From Candidatus Sumerlaeota bacterium (lineage in GTDB: Bacteria > Sumerlaeota > Sumerlaeia > SLMS01 > JAHLLQ01), in NCBI GenBank assembly GCA_021772755.1, contig JAJFLJ010000224.1:1-43861 (forward strand): a stretch of 43,861 nt of DNA. Direction: 5' to 3'. The notes beneath the pieces were generated by a model. The model did not search any database, had not been told where the DNA came from, and was given only the letters and a program-made list of their open reading frames with translations. Each line of letters begins with the position of its first letter. Within the stretch, counting starts at the first letter, position 1. Positions 1 through 15,106 of the stretch are shown piece by piece. The position numbers were made by a program, and so were the translations under genes.

Positions 1-214
1 CGGTGACGCTGCCGCCCGGCGAGTTGACGTAGATGTTGATGTCCTTGGCGGGGTCGCTGCTCTCCAGAAAGAGAAGCTGCGCCGTGACCAGGCTCGCGAC
101 CGTGTCGTTGATCGGCGTGCCGATGAAGATGATGCGGTCCATCAGCAGGCGCGAGAAGATGTCCATCGAGCGCTCGCCGCGCTCGGTCTGTTCCAGAACG
201 AATGGGACGTCCAT
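1..214 (-). CDS. clpP: ATP-dependent Clp protease proteolytic subunit (5' part; runs off the window edge)
   Basis: Minus-strand translation [71 protein letters not shown] is ClpP N-terminal sequence; start ATG at 214; truncated by window edge. Confidence 0.93.
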
Positions 215-2635: not shown

Positions 2636-3214
2636 TTGACCAACCCAAAGAAGTACGAAGCAGTCCTGATCTTCGAGGGACAGTTCACCGAAGACCAGAT
2701 CGCCGAGCAGGTCACGAAGACCAGCGAGGTCATCACCAAGAACGGCGGGACCGTTCTCGGCAACCTGACCCTCGGCAAGAAGCGCCTCGCCTATCCGATC
2801 AATCGGCGCCGCGAGGGCATCTACGTCCAGATCGACTTCGAGACGGCGACGGACAACACGGTCCTCGCGGAGCTCAACCGCCACCTGCGCATCACCGAGG
2901 AGATCATTCGCTCCCTGGTGTCGGCCTCCGTGGTCGGCAAGTCGAAGGGCCGCGATCTCACGCCCGACGAAATGGCGCGTTTCCTTCCCCGCGGCGGCGG
3001 ACGCCGTCCCGGTGGCCCGCCCCGCGAGCGCTACGGCTCCTCGTCCGGCCCCCGCACGGGCGACCGCCCCTCCTACGCGCCGCGCGACGACCGCCGACCC
3101 GCCGAGGGGGCAGTTCCTGCCGCCGCCCCGGCTTCGGCTGAGGCACCCGCCGCGAGCGCCCCTGCGGCGCCTGCGGATCCCGCATCCACCGACAACACTC
3201 CTTCGACGACCTGA
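2636..3214 (+). CDS. rpsF: 30S ribosomal protein S6 with long Pro/Ala/Arg-rich C-terminal extension
   Basis: KKYEAVLIFEGQFTEDQI...RRREGIYVQIDFE...LRITEEIIRSLV; TTG start. Confidence 0.92.
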   Translation: MTNPKKYEAVLIFEGQFTEDQIAEQVTKTSEVITKNGGTVLGNLTLGKKRLAYPINRRREGIYVQIDFETATDNTVLAELNRHLRITEEIIRSLVSASVVGKSKGRDLTPDEMARFLPRGGGRRPGGPPRERYGSSSGPRTGDRPSYAPRDDRRPAEGAVPAAAPASAEAPAASAPAAPADPASTDNTPSTT

Positions 3215-3228
3215 GCGGGAGATTCGCT

Positions 3229-3693
3229 GTGGAACTCAACAAAGTCTTTCTCATCGGAAACCTGACGCGGGACCCCGAATCGCGGTTTCTGCAGAGCGGT
3301 TCGCAGGTCTGCAAGATGGGCCTCGCATCGAACCGGCGGTACAACTCCGGCGGCGAGAAGCGCGAAGAAACGCTCTTCATCGACGTGGAGGCGTGGGGCA
3401 AGACGGCCGAGCTTTGCAGCCAGTACCTGCGCAAGGGCAGCCAGATCCTCGTCGATGGGCGCCTGAAGATGGACCAGTACCAGACCAAGGAAGGCGAGAA
3501 GCGGACGAAGTACGTCATCGTCGCCGATCGCGTCCAGTTCGGTTCGCGCGCCGACGGCGGCCAGGGCGGCGGCGGCGGAAGCCGTTCCTCGTCCGGCGGC
3601 CACGACTCGCGCGTGGGCGAACGCGGTGACGACTACGCCGATGCCGGAATGCCCGGCAACGAAGGCGCGACCGAAGACGACCTTCCCTTCTGA
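3229..3693 (+). CDS. ssb: Single-stranded DNA-binding protein
   Basis: [20 protein letters not shown]..., Gly-rich linker, acidic C-terminal tip EDDLPF; GTG start. Confidence 0.96.
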
Positions 3694-3734
3694 ACCAGAC
3701 AATCCCCTCCCGAAATACCCCCGAGGTTTCGACA

Positions 3735-4091
3735 ATGACCGAAGAAAGAGCAACTCCCTCAGCACCAGCACCGGCGGCCTCTTCGGCCCCGGAACGCCGC
3801 GACGACCGTCGTGACGACCGCCGCGGCGGCCCCCGCGGCAGCGATCGCGGCGGAGACCGCGGCGGCCAGCGCCGCCGGCGCTTTCCGCGCCGCAAGGTGT
3901 GCTATTTCACCGCCACCGGCGCGGAGTACATCGACTACAAGGACGTCGCGACGCTTCGCCGCTTCATCTCCGACCGGGGCAAGATCATGCCCCGCCGCAT
4001 CACGGGCACGTCCGCGAAGTTCCAGCGGATGCTGACCACCGCCATCAAGCGCGCCCGCCATCTGGCGCTGCTTCCCTACGTCGCGGACTGA
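3735..4091 (+). CDS. rpsR: 30S ribosomal protein S18 with Asp/Arg/Gly-rich N-terminal extension
   Basis: [65 protein letters not shown]. Confidence 0.95.
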
Positions 4092-4121
4092 TCCGCCGGA
4101 AGATTCCCAGGAGCATCGATC

Positions 4122-4748
4122 ATGCGTATCGTTCTATTCAAGTCAGTGGACAATCTGGGCAGCGCCGGCGACGTCGTCGACGTCAAGCGCGGCTACTACC
4201 GCAATTTCCTCGGGCCGCGCGGCTTCGCCCGCGAGGCCACCAGGGCGAACCTCGCTCTGATGGAGTCGCAGAAGAACAAGATCCAGGCGATGGTGCAGCG
4301 CGAGCGTCTCGCCGCCGGCGAGGCCGCCGAGGCCCTTCAGGGCGTCGTGCTCGAGTTCGAGCTTCGCTCCAACGACAAGGGCCAGCTGTTCGGCTCGGTG
4401 ACGTCGATGGACATCGCGAAGTCGCTTGCCGACAAGGGGCTCGCGATCGACCGCCGGAAGATCGAAATGCCCGAGGCCATCAAGCTTCTCGGCACGTACC
4501 CCGTTCGCATCCGTCTCTACCCCGAAGTCTTCGCGGAAATCTCCATCACGGTCAAGCGCCTGCTGACGCCCGAGGAGATCGAGCACATGAAGGCCGAGGA
4601 GGAGCGCCGCGAGCGCGAGCGCGCCATCGCCCAGTCCGGCTCCGCCGACCACGCGGAGACCGAAGAAGGCGAAGGCGGGGAAGCGGAAGAGGTCCTCGCC
4701 GAAGCGGGCGGGGAAGCCTCCGAAGAGACCGCCGACCTGCCCGAGTAG
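4122..4748 (+). CDS. rplI: 50S ribosomal protein L9 with acidic C-terminal extension
   Basis: MRIVLFKSVDNLGSAGDVVDVKRGYYRNFLGPRGFA...LFGSVTSMDIAKSL. Confidence 0.95.
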   Translation: MRIVLFKSVDNLGSAGDVVDVKRGYYRNFLGPRGFAREATRANLALMESQKNKIQAMVQRERLAAGEAAEALQGVVLEFELRSNDKGQLFGSVTSMDIAKSLADKGLAIDRRKIEMPEAIKLLGTYPVRIRLYPEVFAEISITVKRLLTPEEIEHMKAEEERRERERAIAQSGSADHAETEEGEGGEAEEVLAEAGGEASEETADLPE

Positions 4749-4859: not shown

Positions 4860-5951
4860 GTGACCTTTAGCCTCATCGACCGGGATATGGCGGGAGAGTT
4901 CTTCCGGACCCTGGGTGCGCTGGTCGCTCTCCTGGCCATTCTGTTTCTCGCCGACACCCTGGTGGGGAACCTCTCGGCCATCGTCGGCGACAGCGAAGTC
5001 GGGTTCCACTGGCTTCTGGTGTACTACTTCCTGCGGCTGCCGAGCTTTCTCATCGAGATCGCCTCCCTCGCCGTCGCCGCCTCCATCCTCTGGGTCGCGA
5101 CCCGCAAGGCCCGCACGAACGAAACGCTGGCCTGGATGGCGGGAGGAGTCGCTCCCCGGCGAATCGCCCGGCCCTTGGTCCTGTGCAGCCTGGCGCTGGC
5201 TATCGCCAGCATCGGGGCCAACGAGCTCTTCGCCCAGCACGGCAGGCGGGAGGCCGAGCGCATCGAGGAGTCCATCATCGAGGGCAAGGACGTCACCCGC
5301 ACGGAGAATATCTACCAGCGCGGGAGCGAGAACCGCATCTACCTGATCGAGAGCTTCGATTCCGCCGCGGAGGAAATGATCGAGCCCACCGTGATCGAGC
5401 TCTATCCGGAGTCCAGGGCGCCCCGCCAGATCGTGCGGGCCGACCGCGCCGAGATCGCCGGCGGCAGCGGTCGCGACTGGGTCTTCATGAACGCCTCGGT
5501 CCGGAACTTCGACCGCGAGGGGCGCCTGGAGGGGTTCCTCCAGGAGAGCGAATACTGGATCGAGCTGGAGCCGAAACTCAGCACGTTCCTTGGGGAACTG
5601 GACGACCCGCGCATGATGTCGATGGCCGAGCTGCGCCGCTACATAAAGCTCATTGACGCGCAGGGGAAGGACACTTCCCAACTGACAACGCAGTTGCACG
5701 AGAAGCTCGCGATTCTCGCGGGAATCGCGGTGATCGGACTTCTGATGTGCGCGCACGCGATTTCGCCCCGGGCGGTGGGAACGATCGCCGGATTCGGCGG
5801 CGGGCTGGTCTGGATCGCCGCGTGGTACGGGGTGACCGTGTTCTTCCAGAAGGTCGGAGAGGCCGGTCTGGGAATTCCCCCGGTGCTCGTCGCGTGGTGT
5901 CCGAACCTGATCTTCGGAACGATCGGCGTCGCGATGATCTGGAAACGATGA
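4860..5951 (+). CDS. LptF/LptG (YjgP/YjgQ) family permease
   Basis: 363 aa; N-terminal membrane-spanning segments with ARTNETLAWMAGGVAPRRIARPL, periplasmic domain, C-terminal TM segments; typical YjgP/YjgQ layout. Confidence 0.8.
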   Translation: MTFSLIDRDMAGEFFRTLGALVALLAILFLADTLVGNLSAIVGDSEVGFHWLLVYYFLRLPSFLIEIASLAVAASILWVATRKARTNETLAWMAGGVAPRRIARPLVLCSLALAIASIGANELFAQHGRREAERIEESIIEGKDVTRTENIYQRGSENRIYLIESFDSAAEEMIEPTVIELYPESRAPRQIVRADRAEIAGGSGRDWVFMNASVRNFDREGRLEGFLQESEYWIELEPKLSTFLGELDDPRMMSMAELRRYIKLIDAQGKDTSQLTTQLHEKLAILAGIAVIGLLMCAHAISPRAVGTIAGFGGGLVWIAAWYGVTVFFQKVGEAGLGIPPVLVAWCPNLIFGTIGVAMIWKR

Positions 5952-6013: not shown

Positions 6014-6871
6014 ATGCTTCTTTCGAAGCGCAAAAAGAAACGCACCGTCGTCTTCGTCTGCACGGGAAACACCTGTCGCAGCCCCATGGCCCAGGGGCTG
6101 CTGGAGAACTTCCTGGAGGAAAGCGGCGTCAAGCACATCGAGGTCAAGACCGCGGGCGTCATGACGATCCCCGGGCTGCTGCCGACGCCGGAAGCCGTTC
6201 AGGTCATGGACTCGGTCAAGATCGACGTGCGCAAGCACCGCAGCGCTCCGCTGACGCCGGAGATGATCCGCAAGGCGGACCTGGTGCTGGGCATGACGCC
6301 CTTCCACGTCCAGTTCGCCCTGCGCATGGCGGAGGACGCCCGCGACAAGACCTTCCTGCTGAAGGAATACACCAAGAGCGACCTCAAGAACTACCAGATC
6401 ACCGATCCGATGGGGGCGACGCTCGAGGTCTACAAGCGCGTCTTCCGCGAGATCAAGCTGGCCGTCGAGAAGCTCTGCGAGATGGACACGATTCTCGCGC
6501 CGGTGGACCGCCCCGTGAAGCACGAGAAGTGGGTGCCGCCGAAGCCCCAGAAGGCGGCGGCGCCGCAGCAGCCGAAGACCGCCACCGGCGGCAGGGCGAA
6601 GACCTCGCGCGCCAAGACCTCGAAGTCGAAGACCGCTTCGAAGAAGACCGCGACGAAGAAGCCCGCCGCAAAGAAGACCACCGCGAAAAAGCCGGCTGCG
6701 AAGAAGACCACGGCCGGTAAGACCGTGGCGAAGAAGGCGACCGCGAAGAAGCCGGCGGCAAAGAAGGCCGCGACGAAGAAGCCCGTCGCAAGGAAGACGA
6801 CGGCGAAGAAACCCGCCACGAAGAAGCCGGTGGCCAGGAAGGCCGCCACGAAGAAGCCCGCGAAGAAGTAG
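6014..6871 (+). CDS. Low-molecular-weight phosphatase (protein-arginine-phosphatase-like) with histone H1-like Lys/Ala/Thr/Pro-rich C-terminal tail
   Basis: VVFVCTGNTCRSPMAQG (CX5R) and ITDPMG (acid loop) motifs, then in one frame RAKTSRAKTSKSKTASKKTATKKPAAKKTTAKKPAAKK... Confidence 0.9.
   Translation: MLLSKRKKKRTVVFVCTGNTCRSPMAQGLLENFLEESGVKHIEVKTAGVMTIPGLLPTPEAVQVMDSVKIDVRKHRSAPLTPEMIRKADLVLGMTPFHVQFALRMAEDARDKTFLLKEYTKSDLKNYQITDPMGATLEVYKRVFREIKLAVEKLCEMDTILAPVDRPVKHEKWVPPKPQKAAAPQQPKTATGGRAKTSRAKTSKSKTASKKTATKKPAAKKTTAKKPAAKKTTAGKTVAKKATAKKPAAKKAATKKPVARKTTAKKPATKKPVARKAATKKPAKK
6593..6868 (+). repeat. Lys-rich low-complexity repeat encoding KTTAKKPAAKK-type units
   Basis: Imperfect tandem codons GCGAAGAAG/CCGGCGGCAAAGAAG encoding residues about 194-285. 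Confidence 0.9.
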
Positions 6872-6930: not shown

Positions 6931-6957
6931 TCGCGCCCCTTTCCGGGGCGCGATTTT
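6931..6957 (+). terminator. Rho-independent terminator
   Basis: TCGCGCCCC-TTTCC-GGGGCGCGA followed by TTTT. Confidence 0.8.
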
Positions 6958-14269: not shown

Positions 14270-15106
14270 ATGACCGGGCTGGCTGTATACTGTGGAGTAT
14301 CGAAACCGCGTCCGAGTCGTTCGTTGCGACAGACCGCAGGGCTGAAAAGGCTGATCGCCGGGATGGCCATCGCGATGGCTGTTCAGGCTGCGTGGGCGGA
14401 TGTCTGGGTCATCACCTCGTTTCGTCCCGACACCGATGGCGATTGCGTGCCCGACGACCTCGAAGTCCTCCTGGGGCTCGATCCCAACGACCCCGACACC
14501 GATGGCGACACGATCCCCGACGGCGACGAGGACAGCGACAACGACGGCCTCTCGAACTGCGGCGAGGTTCTGACCGGTCTCGACCCCAACGATCCCGACA
14601 CCGACGATGACGGGACCGACGACGGCGACGAGGACACCGACCGCGACGGCCTCGGCAACGAGGAAGAGGAAGACGAAGGAACGGACCCCAACGACCCCGA
14701 CACCGATGGCGACGGCGTGCTGGACGGCGACGAGGTCGCCGAGAATTCCGACCCCCTCGACATGAACGACGTGCCGTCGGCGATGGCCGGCGCGCCGCGG
14801 GCCGCGTCCTCCGCGTTCGCTTCACTCATAAACAGGACCACCGCTCTTCCGCCTGCGGGAGTCGATGTGGCGTCCGGCGAATTCGTCACCATGCGCAACG
14901 TCACCACCACCATTCCATCGGCCGGTATCGACGTTGCGTCGGGCGAGTTCGTCACGATGCGCAACGTCACCACCACCATTCCATCGGCCGGTATCGACGT
15001 CGCGTCGGGCGAGTTCGTCACCATGCGCAACGTCACGGAAACACCCAAGGCGCCGCCTCCTGCGGCGATCAGCCCTTTCGTCAGTCTTGAAAACACTCCC
15101 CCCTGA
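14270..15106 (+). CDS. Secreted thrombospondin type 3-like (Asp-rich, probable Ca2+-binding) repeat protein, copy 1 (start may be TTG at 14324)
   Basis: Signal-like [62 protein letters not shown]...; C-terminal 22-aa repeats. Confidence 0.85.
14858..15037 (+). repeat. 66-bp near-identical tandem repeat, about 2.7 copies
   Basis: Units begin at 14858, 14924 and 14990 and encode G(I/V)[20 protein letters not shown]; the GTCACC junction recurs at 14900, 14966, 15032 (exact 66-bp period). Confidence 0.95.

Follow-up and report, generated by a model that had tools for sequence, protein, structure and literature searches.

Firmicutes are the group in which arginine phosphorylation is best known, and HrcA and CtsR, the usual heat-shock repressors, are known targets of the kinase McsB. 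The arginine phosphatases YwlE and PtpB of Bacillus and Staphylococcus have an LMWPc fold, a general-acid Asp, and the P-loop CTGNTCRS, whose Thr directs both enzymes to phosphoarginine (pArg) over phosphotyrosine (pTyr) (PMC8001253). Disordered Lys/Ala/Pro repeat tails of H1-like composition are found in the KPAA-tail proteins AlgP and PhaF and in chlamydial HC2.

We analyzed a 43,861-nucleotide stretch from the genome of an uncultured Candidatus Sumerlaeota bacterium (contig JAJFLJ010000224.1), hereafter the window, whose gene at 6014-6871 can be compared with both groups. Its product shares with YwlE and PtpB the LMWPc fold, the general-acid Asp, and the P-loop CTGNTCRS, including its pArg-directing Thr; McsB and ClpC are encoded in the same genome, and glyA (and rpiB) lies downstream in some families. 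Unlike YwlE and PtpB, the Sumerlaeota protein has a basic tail and a basic N-terminus and reads DPM where YwlE has DPF, its nucleophile is lost in sister lineages, and its host phylum has LPS export genes. The tail resembles those of AlgP, PhaF, and HC2 in its disorder, repeats, composition, and Pfam HC2 match but is joined here to a phosphatase in place of a helical or granule-binding domain. We explain the locus, with about an even chance of being right, as encoding a nucleoid-tethered arginine phosphatase, orthologous to YwlE, of a McsA-McsB-ClpC/ClpP pathway in Sumerlaeota.

The phosphatase gene and its assignment

The gene is a single unbroken open reading frame of 285 amino acids on the forward strand (6014-6871, stop codon included), as originally predicted, with GGAGG about 8 nt 5′ of the ATG and, at 6931-6953 (+), a terminator-like hairpin that is a consensus match only. 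An Rfam search found no RNA elements near the gene. A short basic N-terminus, MLLSKRKKKRT (6014-6046), aligns with similar sequences in families f1, f2, and f13 and is followed by the LMWPc domain (residues 12-154, 6047-6475; Pfam, E 2.6e-29), in which VCTGNTCRSPMA and ITDPMG are both present, as the original prediction had it. The P-loop CTGNTCRS (residues 16-23, 6059-6082) has the nucleophile Cys16, the specificity residue Thr20, and the phosphate-binding Arg22 in invariant columns, and the DPM motif (6404-6412) places Asp131 at the general-acid position, with D131 and P132 invariant and kept in the class alignment. The window protein thus keeps the catalytic Cys, and a CX5R P-loop, a DP(x) general acid, and the LMWPc fold, the defining features of the LMW-PTP family, are found by sequence, Pfam, and an AlphaFold2 model whose pLDDT is mostly 95 to 98 in the domain and 51 to 68 in the tail.

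In comparisons with PDB sequences and structures, YwlE arginine phosphatases come out closest in both sequence and fold. In the phosphatase tree, several backbone branches of which are weak, the class clade is split with support of 100/100 from the classical PTP paralogs of the same genomes. The other LMW paralogs read in the class genomes are classical or ArsC-like, and the classical ones are short. The tree, the best PDB matches, and the P-loop agree on a YwlE-type protein and disfavor a classical LMW-PTP; NCBIfam scores for arsenate reductase fall far under their cut-offs. The specificity Thr, which had been singled out before, is in place at the PX5 position of the P-loop, and the window enzyme probably takes phosphate off arginine.

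The ortholog is single-copy in 31/39 genomes of the class, including all 20 good ones. Its upstream neighbor in the window, an LptG/LptF-type LPS export permease gene (4860-5951, +), is also upstream in relatives from f1, f5, f11, and f13. In f5 and f13 the phosphatase gene lies between lptG and glyA, with rpiB there too in f5, an order that we take to resemble ywlE-ywlF-glyA of B. subtilis. Linkage to the ribosomal operon was rejected as a functional clue, with none beyond f1 in the neighborhoods read. At two loci from Akkermansia and Verrucomicrobia (L042 and L093), an LMW phosphatase frame runs on into RpiB-like sequence, an extension of 577 to 584 amino acids; these frames are perhaps YwlE-RpiB-GlyA fusions.

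The McsA-McsB-ClpC/ClpP gene set

A link between the phosphatase and pArg-dependent ClpCP degradation was the most speculative part of the original prediction and has become its strongest. On another contig of the same genome (C164, locus L143), mcsA (with a UVR motif), mcsB, and clpC are consecutive on one strand, and the tandem clpP genes were confirmed in the window, one at 217-921 (-; Pfam) and the other at 2-214 (-), truncated where the window begins. The McsA-McsB-ClpCP gene set is therefore complete in this genome, and the search for a McsB-like kinase, proposed earlier as a check, found one with McsA and ClpC beside it. The McsB best match is the protein-arginine kinase 6fh1 (E 5.4e-69); its score against NCBIfam NF002194, 331.8 bits, is under the strict equivalog cut-off of 385. 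Wherever they are covered, McsB sequences of the class retain NEEDH and the C(P/I/T)(T/S)N loop with its Cys. The N-domain of ClpC matches those of solved ClpC structures. In total, mcsB is present in 34/39 class genomes and occurs together with the phosphatase gene in 29; both are present in 20/20 good genomes. PF00217 was negative in every named control genome, including B. subtilis despite its known McsB, so the McsB call rests on direct matches to solved McsB.

Firmicute-type CtsR was found in 0/39 class genomes, a search in which L. lactis alone of the controls was positive and B. subtilis was negative. B. subtilis is known to have both PF00217 and CtsR, and the silence of this control may mean that its copy lacks the operon or that the initial screen misses it, so the controls call for caution. 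HrcA was likewise found in 0/39 class genomes. CtsR and HrcA were accordingly set aside as DNA-bound targets, neither being detected in the class. In Bacillus, the RD of the McsB C-terminal RDxxRA motif serves as the pArg receptor, and this motif is changed (RG, GD) in G020 and G026 of f11 and in G021 of f12. These are two lineages that have also lost the phosphatase Cys. Adjoining clpC of the operon is a gene for a 158-aa histone-like protein with KARKGAKK repeats (L143:3872-4348, +).

Spread across a phylum that has LPS export genes, a complete McsA-McsB-ClpC/ClpP-YwlE set would widen the map of arginine phosphorylation.

The basic tail and its candidate partners

The Lys/Ala/Thr/Pro tail (residues 174-285, 6533-6868, +) is predicted to be disordered and is encoded by a degenerate tandem array (6628-6861) whose third-position GC equals that of the domain (0.93). 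Both the presence and the H1-like composition of the tail were as described originally, with a Pfam HC2 (histone H1-like nucleoprotein) match at residues 180-283 of 42.4 bits against a cut-off of 40; the length was underestimated, being nearer 110 residues than about 90. The NCBIfam HC2 score is 30.4 against a cut-off of 135, so the window protein is not an HC2 ortholog. The search for this architecture in related genomes, suggested with the original prediction, recovered LMWPc plus a basic C-terminal tail in 31/31 class orthologs, with tail lengths of 28 to 196 residues where measured, which rules out a frameshift or assembly artifact. Tail sequence drifts fast while composition is kept: at 95% domain identity to the G001 ortholog, the tails differ by 45 residues in length. 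A Lys-rich tail was seen in 0/80 relatives outside the class, a sample collected with FVCTGNTC and other window peptides and thus biased in the P-loop, not directly in the tail. Paper searches pairing McsB with Planctomycetes, or YwlE with nucleoid and DNA binding, turned up nothing on tailed phosphatases.

The consistency of the tail bears on a reading that we regard as quite improbable, in which the protein is an ordinary LMW tyrosine phosphatase and its tail, lacking a specific role, reflects a lineage habit of disordered low-complexity extensions. Ribosomal proteins bS6, bS18, and bL9 of the window do have unusual extensions, and another protein of the same genome has a Lys/Ala-rich N-terminus, but the tail is universal among the orthologs while the classical paralogs read are short, and neither the YwlE-type P-loop nor the co-occurrence with McsB fits this reading.

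Sister proteins bear on the nature of the partner. In f6, AT-hooks score above the Pfam cut-off in three stretches each of the orthologs at L033 and L034, and 20,000 shuffles never reached the RGRP[PR]K count of L028, L033, and L034. These motifs make the sisters similar to AT-hook proteins and favor DNA as their partner, whereas AT-hooks are absent from the window protein. DNA tethering of the window protein is our inference from its HC2-like tail together with the AT-hooks of its sisters. The tail could instead bind RNA, polyphosphate, or nothing specific. An anchor of polyphosphate or of ribosomes/RNA in place of DNA has, in our view, a low probability: AlgP, whose KPAA tail is similar, associates with polyphosphate granules (PMC9239181), and ribosomal protein genes lie close to the phosphatase gene in the window, but the AT-hooks of sister tails point to DNA and the ribosomal neighborhood was not seen outside f1 in those read.

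Under the nucleoid-tethered phosphatase explanation, McsB would tag proteins for ClpCP by phosphorylating arginine, and the H1/AlgP-like C-terminal tail would hold the phosphatase on the nucleoid or a similar polyanion. Sitting on DNA, the tailed phosphatase would erase phosphoarginine from DNA-associated proteins, which might be spared degradation, or regulators might be reset. The eraser's chromatin-type tail suggests that the place of mark erasure matters.

Replacement of the catalytic cysteine in sister lineages

The original reading of a tethered pArg phosphatase is supported in part, by the YwlE type, the Thr, McsA/McsB/ClpC, and the class-wide tail, but it had not foreseen that the catalytic Cys is replaced in 11/31 orthologs, by Ser in four genomes and by Asp in seven. 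Among the 20 orthologs that keep Cys, the P-loop is CTGNTCRS in 13 (the window's included), CTGDTCRG in 5, and CTGNTCRG and CTGDTCRN in 1 each. The Ser P-loops are STGNICRS (2, f11) and STGDTCRS (2, f4 and f12, one genome each), and all seven f6 orthologs have Asp (DTGDNCRC in six and DTGDTCRA in G033; one P-loop tally took in B. subtilis YwlE and left out G033). The phosphate-binding Arg, the Asp of DP, and the tail are kept in the Cys-less orthologs, as are the NEEDH motif and Cys loop of McsB. On the marker tree, at least 4 nucleophile changes are needed, with f12 beside the Cys-bearing f3 (100/99) and the placement of f4 weak. The phosphatase tree groups f4 with f12 (91/87), so that 3 events are possible, although its P-loop columns were left in and could favor this grouping. 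Cys was lost in 3 to 4 separate events. The domain is under purifying selection (dN of ∼0.02 against dS of ∼1), to a similar degree in Ser, Asp, and Cys pairs, with dS saturated in some.

Because sister lineages have lost the nucleophile, the conserved function is not always catalysis, and hydrolysis is not universally required, given 11/31 orthologs without it. Judged from sequence, the property conserved class-wide is a tailed phosphate-binding domain alongside the McsB system, not the Cys. The Cys-less orthologs may be phosphoarginine readers or users of another nucleophile. A solved YwlE C7S mutant, 4kk4, bears a phosphorylated active-site serine according to its title, and the Ser variants may therefore take up a phosphoryl group once; for the Asp variants, turnover via an acyl phosphate is chemically thinkable. 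Like PTP-family pseudophosphatases, these proteins have a replaced catalytic Cys and a fold still under selection; unlike them, they are bacterial, of LMW/YwlE type, and have a candidate partner kinase, and the Asp that replaces Cys might be chemically competent on P-N bonds. The repeated natural replacements provide ready-made variants for probing YwlE-type readers or other nucleophiles.

It is conceivable, though rather unlikely, that binding is the conserved function throughout, in which case the DNA-bound protein would read or trap phosphoarginine; it would be a pseudophosphatase in f4, f6, f11, and f12, with the Cys an extra in f1. Ser variants could then hold pArg proteins, and Asp variants could become phospho-Asp by accepting phosphoryl from the high-energy P-N bond. 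The retained Arg, DPM Asp, tail, and McsB active-site motifs, the minimum of 4 changes on the marker tree, the equally low dN relative to dS in substituted and Cys lineages, and the phosphoserine of 4kk4 all suit such a reader, as does the lack of a second YwlE-type paralog among those read in these genomes. It sits poorly with the retention of Cys in 20/31 orthologs and of the full CTGNTCRS in 13, the window's among them, and f4 and f12 are each known from one genome. We give little credence to a DNA-bound phosphoarginine switch, in which the Asp of f6 would take the pArg phosphoryl, in the manner of a response regulator supplied by an arginine-phosphorylated donor, the Ser of f4, f11, and f12 would trap it, and the mark would be read out on the chromosome.

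Most likely, the window protein is an active and tethered arginine phosphatase, both properties being predicted. What can be read directly from the DNA is the domain with its specificity residue, the kinase-unfoldase operon, and the class-wide tail; from these we infer pArg hydrolysis, DNA binding, and the substrate choice of the tailed phosphatase. Against this explanation count DPM in place of DPF, the McsB score below the equivalog cut-off, and the failure to find CtsR or HrcA, and further the conservation of tail composition rather than sequence, the Cys-less orthologs, and a window protein without AT-hooks.

A second odd LMW protein of the same genome is split by a contig gap between the end of C50 (L003) and the start of C51 (L004:1-894). 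It has an LMWPc domain with FVSSECICRAP, in which the catalytic Cys is apparently Ser, and a DnaJ domain in the other half; other f1 and f2 genomes also have LMW frames of 360 to 418 amino acids. In the window, the unusual extensions on bS6, bS18, and bL9 (2636-4748) are Ala/Pro-rich, Arg/Gly-rich, and acidic, and a predicted protein at 14270-15106 has Asp-rich calcium-type repeats with three near-identical copies of a 16-residue segment.
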